Origin: an uncultured Burkholderiales bacterium
GTDB lineage: Bacteria > Pseudomonadota > Gammaproteobacteria > Burkholderiales > Burkholderiaceae_C
Reading direction: 5' to 3'
Assembly: GCA_937873395.1 (NCBI GenBank)
Contig: CALMYH010000107.1
Span: 18,117 to 82,116, forward strand
DNA length: 64,000 bases
Under the pieces are notes generated by a model, which had not been told where the DNA came from, did no database searches, and worked only from the letters and a program-made list of their open reading frames with translations. Position numbers and translations under genes: made by a program. Below, one piece after another: positions 58,377-64,000 of this stretch (within the stretch, counting starts at the first letter, position 1; each line of letters opens with the position of its first letter).

Positions 58377-59708
58377 ATGCCTCAATCCCTCAACGAGCAA
58401 CTGAGCCGCCAACAGCAGATCGAAGCCCTGGAAAAGGACTGGGCCAGCAACCCGCGCTGGAAGGGCGTCAAGCGCGGCTACACCGCAGCCGACGTCGTGC
58501 GTCTGCGCGGCAGCGTCCAGCCCGAGTACACCTTCGCCCAGCGCGGTGCCGAGAAGCTGTGGGCCAAGGTCAACGGCGGTGCCAAGAAGGGCTATGTGAA
58601 CGCTTTCGGTGCCATCACCGCTGGCCAGGCCATGCAACAGGCCAAGGCGGGCCTGGAAGCGGTGTACCTGTCGGGTTGGCAGGTGGCCGCTGACGGCAAC
58701 ACCAGCGAAACCATGTACCCCGACCAGTCGCTGTACGCCTACGACTCGGTGCCGACCATGGTGCGCCGCATCAACAACACCTTCAAGCGCGCCGACGAGA
58801 TCCAGTGGAGCCGTGGCATCGAGCCGGGCAGCCCTGAATTCATCGACTACTTCCTGCCCATCGTGGCCGATGCCGAAGCCGGTTTCGGTGGTGTGCTGAA
58901 CGCCTTCGAACTGATGAAGAACATGATCGCTGCCGGTGCGGCTGGCGTTCACTTTGAAGACCAGTTGGCCGCCGTCAAGAAGTGCGGCCACATGGGTGGC
59001 AAGGTGCTGGTGCCGACCCAGGAAGCCTGCGAAAAGCTGATCGCTGCCCGTTTCGCTGCCGACACCATGGGCGTCCCGACCCTGATCCTGGCCCGCACCG
59101 ACGCCGAAGCCGCCAACCTGATCACCAGCGACCACGACGCCAACGACAAGCCCTTCCTGACCGGCGAGCGCACCCAGGAAGGTTTCTACCGCGTCAAGAA
59201 CGGTCTGGAGCAGGCCATCAGCCGCGGCGTGGCCTACGCCCCCTACGCCGACCTGGTGTGGTGTGAGACCGGCACGCCCGACCTCGGCTTTGCCCGCGAG
59301 TTCGCCCAGGCCGTGCACGCCGCCTGCCCGGGCAAGCTGCTGTCCTACAACTGCTCGCCCTCGTTCAACTGGAAGAAGAACCTGGACGATGCCACCATCG
59401 CCAAGTTCCAGGACGAGCTGTCGGCGCTGGGTTACAAGTACCAGTTCATCACGCTGGCCGGCATCCACATCAACTGGTTCAACACCTTCCAGTTTGCCCA
59501 CGCCTACGCCCGCGGCGAAGGCATGAAGCACTACACCGAGATGGTGCAGGAGCCCGAGTTCAAGGCGCGCGAGAAGGGCTACACCTTCGTGTCGCACCAG
59601 CAGGAAGTCGGCGCCGGCTACTTCGATGACGTGACCACCGTGATCCAGGGCGGTTCTTCCAGTGTGAAGGCCCTGACCGGCTCGACCGAAGAAGAGCAGT
59701 TCCACTGA
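58377..59708 (+). CDS. aceA: Isocitrate lyase
   Basis: This 443-residue enzyme of the glyoxylate shunt splits isocitrate to glyoxylate and succinate. The catalytic Cys lies in the signature [19 protein letters not shown] and [12 protein letters not shown] are also conserved. The ATG at 58377 follows TGGAGAG. It is a single gene with its own terminator at 59751 and a palindrome-rich upstream region. With acs at 33660 it enables net carbon gain from acetate. Confidence 0.97.
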
Positions 59709-59750
59709 TCTGCCCGGAATCCGCCGTCTGCAGACGGCTGAGGAGACAGC

Positions 59751-59776
59751 AAGCCCGGGCCAGCCCGGGCTTTTTT
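59751..59776 (+). terminator. Intrinsic terminator after aceA
   Basis: A 10-bp GC-rich inverted repeat, AAGCCCGGGC / GCCCGGGCTT around a very short CA loop, so that the innermost pairs must open, is followed by T bases. It separates aceA from the thrS leader. Confidence 0.88.
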
Positions 59777-59828
59777 GTGGGAAAATCGGGGTTTAGCGAC
59801 CGACAAGAGCGAGAAAGGCATCCTGGTT

Positions 59829-59870
59829 ATGACACCGCGAACTCCTTTGGAGACCCTCACGGCCCTTTGA
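59829..59870 (+). CDS. Candidate threonine-rich leader peptide of thrS
   Basis: A 14-codon ORF encodes MTPRTPLETLTAL, with Thr at positions 2, 5, 9 and 11, using ACA, ACT, ACC and ACG once each. AAAGG lies about ten bases before the ATG. It ends 88 bases before the thrS start and upstream of a terminator hairpin at 59915. Four Thr codons in 13 sense codons fits a control codon run read by the ribosome, with charged tRNA-Thr as the signal. Coding status is inferred from this arrangement, not from homology. Confidence 0.6.
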   Translation: MTPRTPLETLTAL

Positions 59871-59884
59871 GGCCTGCAGTTCGC
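59837..59884 (+). promoter_or_regulatory. Inverted repeat linking leader peptide codons to a downstream arm (attenuator segments 1 and 2)
   Basis: GCGAACT (59837-59843), inside the leader ORF over its Arg-Thr codons, is the exact complement of AGTTCGC (59878-59884), ten bases after the leader stop. CGCGC at 59882-59886 can instead pair with GCGCG at 59916-59920, the 5' arm of the terminator. This gives the two exclusive folds expected of ribosome-mediated attenuation. Confidence 0.5.
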
Positions 59885-59914
59885 GCCTGCCTGATCTTCT
59901 CATCTCGTCCCATC

Positions 59915-59943
59915 AGCGCGGCATCGACCGCGCTTTTTGTTTT
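59915..59943 (+). terminator. Intrinsic terminator (attenuator) just upstream of thrS
   Basis: The 7-bp stem AGCGCGG / CCGCGCT with loop CATCGA is followed by TTTTGTTTT. It stands only 15 bases before the thrS ATG and after the aceA terminator, so its likely role is to stop thrS leader transcripts. Confidence 0.75.
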
Positions 59944-59957
59944 CCGGACCCGACACC

Positions 59958-61865
59958 ATGCTCAACATCACGCTCCCCGACGGATCACAACGCCAGTTCC
60001 CCGGCCCGGTCACTGTGGCTGAAGTCGCCGCTTCCATCGGCGCTGGCCTGGCCAAGGCCGCGCTGGGAGGCAAGGTCAACGGCAAGCTGGTCAACACCAG
60101 TTTTCAGATCACCGAGGACGCGCCGCTGGCCATCGTGACCGCCAAGGACGCCGATGGCCTGGAGATGATCCGCCACTCCACCGCCCACCTGCTGGCCTAC
60201 GCCGTCAAGGAGCTGTTTCCCGAGGCGCAGGTGACCATCGGACCGGTGATCGACAACGGCTTCTATTACGACTTCTCGTACAAGCGGCCTTTCACGCCCG
60301 AGGATCTGGTCGCCATCGAGAAGAAGATGGCCGAACTGGCGGCCAAGGACGAGCCGGTGGTGCGCCGCGTGTTGCCGCGCGACGAGGCGGTGGCGTATTT
60401 CAAAGGGCTGGGCGAACACTACAAGGCCGAGATCATTGCCAGCATTCCGAGCAATGAAGATGTGTCCCTGTACCGCGAAGGTGCGTTTGAAGACCTGTGC
60501 CGGGGCCCGCACGTGCCCAGTACCGGCAAGCTCAAGCACTTCAAGCTCATGAAGGTGGCCGGGGCCTACTGGCGTGGCGACCACCGCAACGAGATGCTGC
60601 AGCGCGTCTACGGCACGGCCTGGGCCAGCAAAGAGGATCTGCAGCAGTACCTGACCCTGCTGGAGGAGGCCGAGAAGCGGGACCACCGCAAACTCGGCAA
60701 GGAACTGGACCTGTTCCACATCGATGACCACGCGCCGGGCCTGGTGTTCTGGCACCCCAAAGGCTGGACGGTCTGGCAGCAGGTCGAGCAGTACATGCGC
60801 CAGGTCTACCGGGACAACGGCTACCAGGAGGTCAAGGGCCCACAGATTCTGGACCAGACGCTGTGGGAGAAAACCGGTCACTGGGACAAGTACCGCGACA
60901 ACATGTTCGTGACCGAGTCGGAAAAGCGCGATTACGCGCTCAAGCCGATGAACTGCCCGGGCCACATCCTGATCTTCAAACAGGGCATCAAGAGCTACCG
61001 CGACCTGCCGCTGCGCTATGGTGAGTTCGGGCAATGCCACCGCAACGAGCCTTCGGGTGGCCTGCACGGCATCATGCGTGTGCGTGGCTTCACGCAGGAC
61101 GATGGTCACATCTTCTGTACCGAAGACCAGATTCTGGCCGAGTGCGACACCTTCACCCAGGTGCTCAGGAAGGTGTATGCCGATTTCGGCTTCACCAACA
61201 TCCTCTACAAGGTGTCCACGCGGCCGGCCGCGCGCATCGGCTCGGATGAGTTGTGGGACAAGGCCGAACAGGCGCTGATGGCCAGCCTGCGCCATTCGGG
61301 CTGCGAATTTGTCATCTCCGAAGGTGACGGGGCCTTCTACGGCCCGAAAGTCGAGTACACGCTCAAGGACGCGCTGGGCCGGGAGTGGCAGTGCGGCACC
61401 ATCCAGGTGGACTTCAACCTGTCGGAGCGTCTGGATGCCGAGTACGTGGCCGAGGATGGCAGCCGCCAGCGCCCGGTGATCCTTCACCGGGCCATCGTCG
61501 GCAGCCTGGAGCGATTCATCGGCATCCTGATCGAGCAGCACGCCGGCGCGCTGCCGGTCTGGCTGGCACCGGTGCAGGTGGTGGTGGCCGGAATCACCGA
61601 TGCCCAGGCCGATTACGTCCAGGAAGTGGCGAAAACGCTGCAAAAACAAGGGCTTAGGGTGGCAACCGACCTGCGCAACGAGAAAATTACGTATAAAATA
61701 CGAGAGCACGCGTTGCAAAAGCTGCCTTACATCCTGGTCGTGGGCGACAAGGAGAAGGTTTCTGGCGCTGTCGCCGTGCGGGCCCGAGGCAACAAAGACC
61801 TCGGTGTCATGCCGCTGGAGCAGTTCTCCGAACTCGTCGCGGCAGACGTTTCATCCCGGGTTTGA
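59958..61865 (+). CDS. thrS: Threonyl-tRNA synthetase
   Basis: This 635-residue class II synthetase has an N-terminal TGS domain (about 1-62), the editing domain with the [16 protein letters not shown] signature, a catalytic core with motif 2 ([21 protein letters not shown]) ending in motif 3, and a C-terminal anticodon-binding domain. Zinc ligands include the Cys of [12 protein letters not shown]. The ATG at 59958 is used rather than a start at 59937, which would overlap the terminator. It leads the operon with infC, rpmI, rplT and pheS and appears to be controlled by the leader described at 59829-59943. Confidence 0.98.
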
Positions 61866-61951
61866 GTTCAAACGCATCGGTGAAGCCCGCGCAGGCACTG
61901 GCGCTTCTTGCATGCGTGTTTTGTTGAATCTGCCCACACGAAGGACACACC

Positions 61952-62554
61952 ATAGCTACCAACTTTCGCGACCGCCGCCAGCGTGAAGAGCGTGCACACC
62001 GACTGAACCGTGAAATCATGGCCCCCGAGGTTCGCCTCAACGGGCCGGAAAACGAGCCTCTGGGCATCGTCAGTCTGCAGGAAGCGCTGCGCATGGCAGG
62101 GGAACTGGACGTTGACCTGGTCGAGATCGCGGCCACGGCCAGCCCACCGGTGTGTCGCCTGATGGACTACGGCAAGTTCAAGTACCAGGAGCAGAAGAAG
62201 GCGGCGGAAGCCAAGGCGAAGCAAAAGGTCATCGAGGTCAAGGAAATCAAGTTCCGTCCCGGCACCGACGACGGCGACTACAACATCAAGATGCGCAACA
62301 TTCGGCGCTTTCTCGATGACGGTGACAAGTGCAAGGTCACGCTGCGTTTTCGCGGTCGCGAGATCACGCACCAGGAGCTGGGCCTGGCCTTGCTCAACCG
62401 GATTCGTGATGAGCTGGGGGACAGCATCGTGGTCGAGCAGTTTCCCAAGCTCGAAGGCCGGCAGATGATCATGATGATCGCGCCGGGCCGCAAGAAGGCG
62501 GCAGGCGCCGTCGCCAAGGCCGGCTCCGAGGGAGCGGTCCAGGCGGCGGCCTGA
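61952..62554 (+). CDS. infC: Translation initiation factor IF-3, with AUA start codon
   Basis: This 200-residue factor keeps ribosomal subunits apart and checks the start codon. The N-terminal [19 protein letters not shown] and the signature [24 protein letters not shown]-type linker (positions about 80-105) are typical, with an alanine-rich C-terminal extension. The start is taken as ATA at 61952: AAGGA lies six bases upstream, an in-frame TGA at 61925 excludes any upstream start, and the first ATG (62018) would remove 22 conserved residues. A rare start codon for infC is the known basis of IF-3 autoregulation in E. coli, which uses AUU. Confidence 0.93.
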
Positions 62555-62741
62555 AGCAGAGACAGAATCGCTCCGGCGGGTTGGTCCCCGTCGGAACGTG
62601 TGACAGGCGGCTGGTCGAGAGACCGGCCGTTTGCCACTCCAGGGGAGCCGACAGGCACCCCGGTCAAAAGTGGCTCGGGGCCAACAAGACCGCGGAAGGT
62701 TCGCGGCGCCTCACGAGCACAAATGAAGAAGGAGCATGGAC

Positions 62742-62945
62742 ATGCCCAAAATGAAGACCAAGAGCAGCGCGAAGAAGCGTTTTCGCGTTCGTCCGGGTGG
62801 GACCGTCAAGCGCGGTCAGGCCTTCAAGCGTCACATCCTGACCAAGAAGACCACCAAGAACAAGCGCCACCTGCGGGGTGCGGTGAATGTGCATGAGACC
62901 AATATGGGTCACATGGCACAGATGCTGCCCTTTGCCGGGCTGTGA
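62742..62945 (+). CDS. rpmI: 50S ribosomal protein L35
   Basis: This 67-residue basic protein starts [20 protein letters not shown] and fits L35 over its whole length. GGAG lies seven bases before the ATG at 62742. It follows infC after 187 bases, a gap that could hold the leader through which L20 represses rpmI-rplT in other bacteria; only small stems are seen there. Confidence 0.97.
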
Positions 62946-62983
62946 TGGCTGGCCTCTGATCAACGACGAACAAGGAGAACTCT

Positions 62984-63343
62984 ATGCCTCGCGTCAAACG
63001 TGGTGTCACGGCTCGCGCCCGTCACAAAAAAGTCCTGGCTCTGGCCAAAGGTTTCCGCGGCCGCCGCGGCAACGTCTTCCGCGTCGCCAAGCAGGCGGTG
63101 ATGAAGGCCGGTCAGTACGCCTACCGCGACCGCCGTACCAAGAAGCGTGTGTTCCGCCAGCTGTGGATCGCCCGTATCAATGCGGCAGCCCGTGCTTGTG
63201 GCCTGACCTACAGCCAGTTTGCCAACGGCCTGAAGAAGGCTCAGATCGAAATCGACCGCAAGGTCCTGGCCGATCTGGCCGTGAACGACCAGGCTGCCTT
63301 CGGCAGCATCGTGGAGCAAGTCAAAGCCAAGCTGGCCGCTTGA
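62984..63343 (+). CDS. rplT: 50S ribosomal protein L20
   Basis: This 119-residue rRNA-binding protein begins [20 protein letters not shown] and has the conserved [17 protein letters not shown] and [28 protein letters not shown] precedes the ATG. It acts early in large-subunit assembly and, in E. coli, represses its own operon. It is followed by hairpins and a T-run before pheS. Confidence 0.98.
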
Positions 63344-63402
63344 TTCACGGGTCGCCCCTGAGTGTTCGGTGTCCGCACCGCGCACTCCCGGGCGGGCACT
63401 CG

Positions 63403-63439
63403 AAGGGGTTGGGGCTTGCAAAGGTTCCGCCCCTTTTTT
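63403..63439 (+). terminator. Terminator-like hairpin between rplT and pheS
   Basis: GGGGC (63411-63415) pairs with GCCCC (63429-63433) just before six T; AAGGGG at 63403-63408 can compete for CCCCTT. A separate hairpin, GAGTG / CACTC enclosing CGGTG / CACCG, lies at 63360-63387. It stands 21 bases before pheS, so it may reduce readthrough into pheS. No Phe-rich leader ORF was found. Confidence 0.6.
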
Positions 63440-63460
63440 GTTTACTTCCAGAGTCACACA

Positions 63461-64000
63461 TGAACGAGTTGGACGCACTGGTCGCCAGCGCCCGCGACGA
63501 ATTTGCCCGGGCCGCCACCCCGGCCGAGTTGGAGAACGCCAAAGCCCGCTTTCTGGGCAAGTCGGGCCGCATCACCGAGCTGATGAAAGGCATGGCCGCC
63601 TTGTCGGTGGACGAAAAGAAATCCCGTGGTGCCGCCATCAACCTGGCCAAACAGGCCATCGAGACCGCCCTCAACGAGCGGCGTTCCGCTCTGGCTGAGG
63701 CCGAGCTGGAGCGACAGCTGCGGGCCGAGGCGTTGGACGTCACCCTGCCGGGTCGGCAACGCGGCCAGGGGGGACTGCACCCGGTCAGCCTGACGCTGGA
63801 GCGCATCGAAGCCATCTTTGGCTCGATGGGTTTCGACGTCGCCGAGGGCCCCGAGATCGAGTCCGACTGGTTCAACTTCACCGCGCTGAACACGCCGGAG
63901 GACCATCCGGCGCGCTCCATGCACGACACCTTCTATGTGGAAGGTGGCAGTGCCAAGGCGCCGAACCTGCTGCGCACCCACACCAGCCCGATGCAGATCC
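63461..64000 (+). CDS. pheS: Phenylalanyl-tRNA synthetase alpha subunit, 5' part, truncated by window edge
   Basis: The first 180 residues are present. They show the N-terminal coiled-coil domain ([20 protein letters not shown] to about residue 90) and the start of the class II core, [19 protein letters not shown] then [21 protein letters not shown], standard for PheS. The ATG at 63461 has only a weak AGAG site. The beta subunit gene pheT would be expected beyond the window. Confidence 0.96.

Follow-up and report, generated by a model that had tools for sequence, protein, structure and literature searches.

The window, by which we mean the whole stretch of 64,000 nucleotides that was analysed, contains a forward-strand gene that we take, from its translated product, to be thrS. 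Its upstream neighbor is presumably aceA, judging from the product, and the genes that follow encode products that we take to be those of infC, rpmI, and rplT; pheS lies beyond them. A short ORF containing Thr codons and an intrinsic terminator lie between aceA and thrS (Table 1).

Table 1. Elements of the putative thrS leader and the genes downstream of it (window positions)
Feature	Positions	Strand	Details	Basis
-10-like hexamer GAAAAT, TGTGG before it	59781–59786	+	43–48 nt upstream of leader ATG	Sequence and relatives
GAAAGG, likely Shine-Dalgarno of leader ORF	59813–59818	+	Inside conserved stretch ACAAGRGCGAGAAAGGCA	
Leader ORF MTPRTPLETLTAL, including stop codon	59829–59870	+	Thr codons are codons 2, 5, 9, and 11	Sequence read directly; conservation
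Arm 1, CGCGAACT	59836–59843	+	Codons Pro-Arg-Thr; region 1 of proposed protector helix	
Arm 2, AGTTCGCG	59878–59885	+	Region 2	
Predicted antiterminator, 59885–59895 (GCCTGCCTGAT) with 59912–59922 (ATCAGCGCGGC)	59885–59922	+		Minimum free energy (MFE) structure of RNA before terminator 3' arm
Intrinsic terminator	59915–59943	+	7-bp stem, 6-nt loop, U-rich tail	Terminator scan; sequence
thrS, threonyl-tRNA synthetase	59958–61865	+	Putative regulated gene	ORF list (listed there from upstream TTG, 59937)
infC (probable ATA start 61952), rpmI, rplT	61952–63343	+		ORF list; terminator scan

Read directly, the leader ORF (ATG ACA CCG CGA ACT CCT TTG GAG ACC CTC ACG GCC CTT TGA) uses ACA, ACT, ACC, and ACG once each, and GAAAGG lies 10 nt upstream of its ATG. 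An earlier note on this DNA had described such a short ORF, with four Thr codons of different kinds behind an AAAGG site, and re-reading of the sequence bears this out. The same note had reported an exact 7-base inverted repeat; the repeat is present and is one base pair longer, as arm 1 and arm 2 are complementary over 8 bp. Seven bases (59871–59877), rather than the ten given earlier, separate the stop codon from arm 2, which starts 8 bases after the stop; apart from this small slip in distance, direct reading agreed with the sequence facts in the note. The terminator hairpin AGCGCGG-CATCGA-CCGCGCT occupies 59915–59934 and its U-rich tail reaches 59943, confirming the placement of a terminator just before thrS, with 14 bases between the U-tract and the ATG at 59958. 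Two terminator-like sites were detected in the 901 bases scanned, against 0.8 ± 0.9 in shuffles; the other one (59751–59772) comes after aceA. An alternative pairing of CGCGC with GCGCG in the terminator 5' arm, proposed earlier as the antiterminator, is not the most stable in the window, where the MFE structure pairs the two segments listed in Table 1. A small hairpin, GGT-TATGAC-ACC (59820–59840), surrounds the leader start codon and is nearly invariant in the aligned sets; together with ACAAGRGCGAGAAAGGCA upstream, it looks more conserved than coding would need.

In 70 of 89 family leaders, the sequence TANAAT was present 25–100 nt before the leader ATG, compared with 0 of 88 background windows, and 53 of the 70 matches were positioned at -46 to -54. 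These matches make it plausible that a transcript begins upstream of the leader, and transcription would start about 40 nt before it. The hexamer of the window itself, GAAAAT at -48, does not match TANAAT, and a simple scan of this region of the window found no sigma-70 promoter.

Downstream of thrS, the probable start of infC is a non-canonical ATA codon (61952–61954) that shares its frame with the ORF listed at 62018; E. coli infC has an AUU start codon. A scan of the + strand found no terminator-like site between 61800 and the end of rplT, making it likely that infC, rpmI, and rplT are co-regulated with thrS; the four genes are probably co-transcribed. A terminator-like site (63410–63429) precedes pheS, whose co-regulation with thrS is uncertain. 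The interval between rplT and pheS (63410–63460) contains a terminator-like hairpin with a U-run, as well as a TTG-started frame rich in Phe codons. This frame does not resemble a pheM leader, because its Phe codons are mostly located within or beyond the U-run.

Conservation of the leader and its threonine codons

To analyze the conservation of the leader, we used thrS upstream DNA from 50 of 67 genomes of the genus, from 110 other genomes of the family (108 of 115 non-genus genomes with a thrS match, plus two more), from 86 of the 144 genomes with a thrS match that belong to other families of the order, and from 49 of 68 genomes of other orders with a thrS match. The matches omitted were mostly partial or N-terminally cut, and the order and class genomes were chosen to spread over families. 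A search of the source genome gave one full-length match and 36 others that were short. We also used 80 named loci, three of which (L308, L310, and L319) had no usable thrS start, and 38 extra named loci (L335–L372), which were examined for motif position alone. Removal of duplicate leaders reduced 243 leaders to 226 for the Thr-codon count, and 241 to 232 for the duplex-energy test. Controls were mononucleotide shuffles for the Thr-codon count, the terminator test, the survey of tRNAs and Thr-rich ORFs, and the operator test, and dinucleotide-preserving shuffles for the duplex-energy test, both switch models, and the per-family switch test.

A script that looked for a leader with an in-frame CGA-ACN core detected one in 48 of the 50 loci from the genus, in 90 of the 110 from the family, and in 28 of the 86 from other families of the order (three of these leaders, L094, L187, and L227, look accidental), as well as in all 77 usable named loci. 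Inspection by eye added four further family loci (L119, L136, L141, and L142) with an MTPRT leader and a CGG core. The order of elements seen in the window recurs in the first 30 genus loci that were read; among the genus loci, L030 has a variant leader (MTLRT) with altered arms, and arm 2 contains a mismatch in both L022 and L023. The block GGTTATGACACCGCGAACT, scanned for in one genome per species, was present in at least 118 stretches. It lies just upstream of thrS in 116 of the 118 listed (78/80 and 38/38), and in the remaining two (L308 and L310) the sequence stops 351 and 47 bases past the start of the block. Variovorax, Massilia, Cupriavidus, Janthinobacterium, Acidovorax, and Rhodoferax, as well as others, are among the matches listed.

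A terminator, comprising a hairpin and a U-tract, was present between the leader stop codon and thrS in 241 of 243 loci (median -15.1 kcal/mol); among 60 shuffled control regions, 2 had a T-tailed hairpin at least as stable as -8 kcal/mol. By eye, 16 of the 110 family loci are leaderless, and 11 of these (L042, L045, L064, L099, L100, L104, L108, L116, L129, L159, and L174) retain a strong terminator-like hairpin near thrS, which in L042 and L099 would start almost at the expected transcript start. The hairpins kept in leaderless loci are outside what an attenuator model explains.

We then consider the coding content of the leader. In the seven codons after the core of 226 distinct leaders, Thr codons made up 413 of 1582 in frame, compared with 18 and 50 in the shifted frames and with 122 ± 10 expected from mononucleotide shuffles, although loci of one clade share ancestry and these counts are thus not independent. 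The codon directly after the core was Thr in 130 of 178 non-genus leaders (ACG 52, ACC 33, ACA 30, and ACT 15). A stop codon ends the frame after a median of 8 codons (interquartile range 7–9): TGA in 97, TAG in 91, and TAA in 38. Judged from the sequences, RNA structure by itself can hardly account for this in-frame enrichment combined with varied stop codons at a near-fixed distance. Outside the family, leader peptides differ and are still rich in Thr (MFRTSTTTQS, MQLNRTTTTS, MFKRTTTTRISR, and MLKTDTTTLMISG). At least three Thr in six codons were present in 25 of 86 order loci, compared with 2% of shuffled sequences and 6% on the reverse strand; after three loci (L070, L094, and L233) had been dropped by eye, the 22 that were left were spread over 13 of 50 families. 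The earlier note had raised the question of whether the Thr codons or the repeat are lost in relatives; the Thr codons are kept in frame, and no refutation resulted. By contrast, its suggestion that four different Thr codons are used did not carry over to relatives: within the genus, where Thr content is lower and often only two, the number of Thr per leader was two in 16 of 48, three in 19, four in 8, and five in 5. The data thus do not support the maintenance of one codon of each kind.

Folding tests and the proposed mechanism

Folding of the window RNA gave a stability that was not unusual relative to shuffles (z -0.46), indicating that single-sequence folding of the window is not above chance. 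Plain duplex energies, a weak and permissive test, reached p ≤ 0.05 for the pairing of region 1 with region 2 (1:2) in 1–15% of sequences by group, and for the pairing of region 2 with the terminator 5' arm (2:3) in 0–26% by group, with 0% in the genus. With RNAalifold, the 1:2 helix was predicted as only four pairs in set A (84 sequences), was missing from set B (23 sequences), and was long in set C (6 sequences); covariation was not countable in set A, because the arm columns are invariant.

We modeled the switch on the RNA before the terminator 3' arm, calculating the probability that the terminator 5' arm is held by region 2. Over 241 leaders, this probability was 0.24 in free RNA, rose to 0.59 when a ribosome was stalled at the Thr codon that follows CGA, and was 0.21 when the ribosome stood at the stop codon; when region 2 was shuffled, the respective values were 0.40, 0.45, and 0.37. 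For the window, the values were 0.53, 0.86, and 0.66, compared with 0.46, 0.70, and 0.49 after shuffling, an unremarkable switch when this sequence is taken by itself. The ribosome footprint at the stop codon was set to -15 to +12, and the low value of 0.21 depends on this footprint, because arm 1 must be free behind the ribosome. In a first model, in which all RNA up to the stop codon was masked, stalling and stop positions showed no consistent difference, and the antiterminator probability at the stop codon was 0.43–0.75 by group. Outside the family, 13 of 18 families shifted more than their own shuffles (sign p 0.048, Wilcoxon p 0.007), including two families in which the shift itself was 0.00, and five had no switch. 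In several other families, arms of differing sequence still pair in the switch model. In the full-length window RNA, the terminator probability fell from 0.97 to 0.70 upon stalling. The mean for full-length stalled RNA at equilibrium was 0.85, still in favor of the terminator; accordingly, the switch would have to be kinetic.

The sequence allows a helix of the leader Thr codons with RNA just past the leader stop codon (1:2), an alternative pairing of RNA at and beyond arm 2 with the terminator 5' arm (2:3), and the terminator directly before thrS (3:4). In the proposed mechanism, with ample Thr-tRNA, or with no ribosome on the leader, the 1:2 helix would form and polymerase would terminate near 59943. 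When Thr-tRNA is scarce, a ribosome stalled on codons 2–5 would mask region 1, allowing 2:3 to form ahead of the terminator 3' arm, and transcription would continue into thrS.

Several features of an attenuator were sought in these data. An ORF rich in codons of the cognate amino acid (413/1582 in frame) and an intrinsic terminator between leader and gene (241/243) were found at the sequence level, and mutually exclusive 1:2 and 2:3 pairings set by the position of the ribosome were obtained at the level of the model. The Thr-sensing attenuation of thrS proposed in the earlier note thus gains support from the in-frame Thr codons, the terminators, and a modeled switch above that of shuffles. Taken together, the sequence and modeling results suggest that the element is very probably a ribosome-mediated (leader-peptide) transcription attenuator, through which thrS, and probably infC-rpmI-rplT, would respond to charged tRNA-Thr. 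The conservation among relatives suggests that threonine shortage is read here, with the result that more of an essential enzyme is made. If this is true, much of a large order controls thrS by an unrelated circuit that is read via the same charged tRNA, and it becomes directly testable how one regulator of a gene comes to replace another. It would also explain a small ORF found in well over a hundred genomes, and add a taxonomically broad RNA element that is absent from Rfam.

Alternative explanations

Autorepression of thrS in E. coli is a textbook case. According to the available part of the cited report, E. coli thrS is repressed by threonyl-tRNA synthetase (ThrRS) bound to a tRNA-like operator (PMC7373986). 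Under regulation of the E. coli type, ThrRS would bind an operator resembling tRNA-Thr in the leader of its own mRNA, and both terminator and ORF would be secondary. We searched the 120 nt before thrS for a hairpin with the 7-nt loop [CT]TNGT[AG]N. The pattern was detected 35 nt before E. coli thrS (L423, positive control). Other orders had it in 22 of their 49 loci (17 with CGT and 5 with GGT; shuffled 0.5%), 20 of the 22 being located at 28–39 nt. These matches indicate that thrS can be regulated in this way. Within the order, however, none of the 246 loci had it (50 from the genus, 110 from the family, and 86 from other families), although a diverged operator could escape the pattern. Moreover, the U-tract of the window ends just 14 bases short of the thrS ATG, and an operator leaves the selection for Thr codons in the short ORF unexplained. 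We therefore rejected a ThrRS operator for this leader, given that the pattern was absent from all 246 loci, and consider it very improbable. Near-miss variants of the operator were noticed by eye in other orders (L374–L421; for example, L387, L398, L405, L406, and L413). The script found a Thr-rich ORF in three of the 49 loci of other orders (L386, L401, and L407); the one in L386 overlaps the operator hairpin, and the one in L401 overlaps a tRNA. Judged from sequence, leader and operator are split by order in this sample, with many loci on either side carrying neither.

A real leader could also act without codon-specific stalling, sensing general translation by ribosome occupancy or by arrest on the MTPRT nascent peptide. 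Among the family leaders listed, the MTPRT start hardly varies, many genus leaders have only two Thr codons, and the start codon sits in the nearly invariant GGT-TATGAC-ACC hairpin. On the other hand, Thr codons recur behind the core and vary synonymously; outside the family, the start often differs, yet Thr runs stay (MFRTSTTTQS, MFKRTTTTRISR, and MLKTDTTTLMISG); and the gene regulated is thrS itself. This possibility is decidedly unlikely. Another explanation is that the ORF is a conserved small protein gene and that the hairpin does no more than terminate upstream transcription, whether spurious or from a tRNA-Val unit. In its favor, 62 of the 86 loci from other families carry a tRNA-Val gene ahead of thrS, 22 of the 41 tRNA-Val loci without a CGA-ACN leader have a strong terminator-like hairpin before thrS, and leaderless family members often retain the hairpin. 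Within the 450 nt examined, however, a tRNA lies upstream in only 2 of 110 family loci; this, together with the -10-like site in 70 of 89 leaders, places the terminator inside the thrS transcript. The tail of the leader peptide is mostly variable except in Thr content and length. We rejected this explanation, which is exceedingly improbable, because upstream tRNAs are few in the family and a -10-like site precedes the leader. We also rejected a T-box riboswitch, because the sole Rfam match in 59000–64000 at E up to 1 was RF02278, a weak antisense match (59687–59748, E 0.056, 25.4 bits against a gathering threshold of 50) that covers the end of aceA. No Rfam family, including the one whose name we take to be Thr_leader, matched over the leader itself in that interval at E up to 1, and six leader loci (L278, L263, L284, L134, L178, and L197) searched at gathering thresholds gave tRNA matches only.

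Evolution and comparison with known systems

Given the attenuator favored above, its history may be read as follows. Burkholderiales would have lost the ThrRS operator of other Gammaproteobacteria (sensu GTDB) and replaced it by the threonine leader attenuator, which several families would have built on the terminator of a tRNA-Val unit (tRNA-Val, leader, terminator, thrS). Control would thereby have shifted from translational repression to transcriptional sensing of charged tRNA, now including infC-rpmI-rplT. We put the chances of this scenario at about even. A CGA-ACN leader is present in 21 of the 62 tRNA-Val loci of other families, and these numbers suggest that the attenuator was perhaps built onto a tRNA terminator. 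Loci with tRNA-Val upstream of thrS include ones with and ones without a leader before the terminator (for example, L177, L178, L197, L198, and L207).

Precedents exist for leader-peptide attenuation, for threonine leaders, and for leaders in front of synthetase genes. In a literature search, we recognised no report of a betaproteobacterial thrS leader; the likeliest earlier source, if there is one, is Lopatovskaya et al. 2010 (doi 10.1134/S0026893310010164). The E. coli pheST leader pheM (annotated in NC_000913) likewise provides leader-peptide attenuation before an aminoacyl-tRNA synthetase gene in proteobacteria, for another amino acid and in another taxon. The same holds, as far as the available part of that report goes, for the cysS candidate uORFC-8-2 of Rhodobacterales (PMC8632094). 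The E. coli thrABC attenuator (thrL), in the portion of its description at hand (PMC4132733), shares the Thr-codon leader ORF, the protector and antiterminator segments, and the terminator before the structural genes, but it controls biosynthesis genes and not thrS. In Streptomyces lividans TK24, a short Thr-containing ORF upstream of thrS, also termed thrL, has been proposed as an attenuator; it differs in being actinobacterial and in its leaderless transcript and its peptide MKRVRPFLETTPGFVPAR with two Thr, and the report of it gives no clear terminator (PMC8079986). Finally, the E. coli thrS operator, a mimic of the anticodon arm, regulates the same gene in response to the demand for Thr-tRNA charging, as described in the available part of its report (PMC7373986). 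There, regulation is by translational repression through protein binding, with an operator pattern that no locus of the order showed (0/246), whereas the leader described here would read the same charged tRNA by transcription attenuation.
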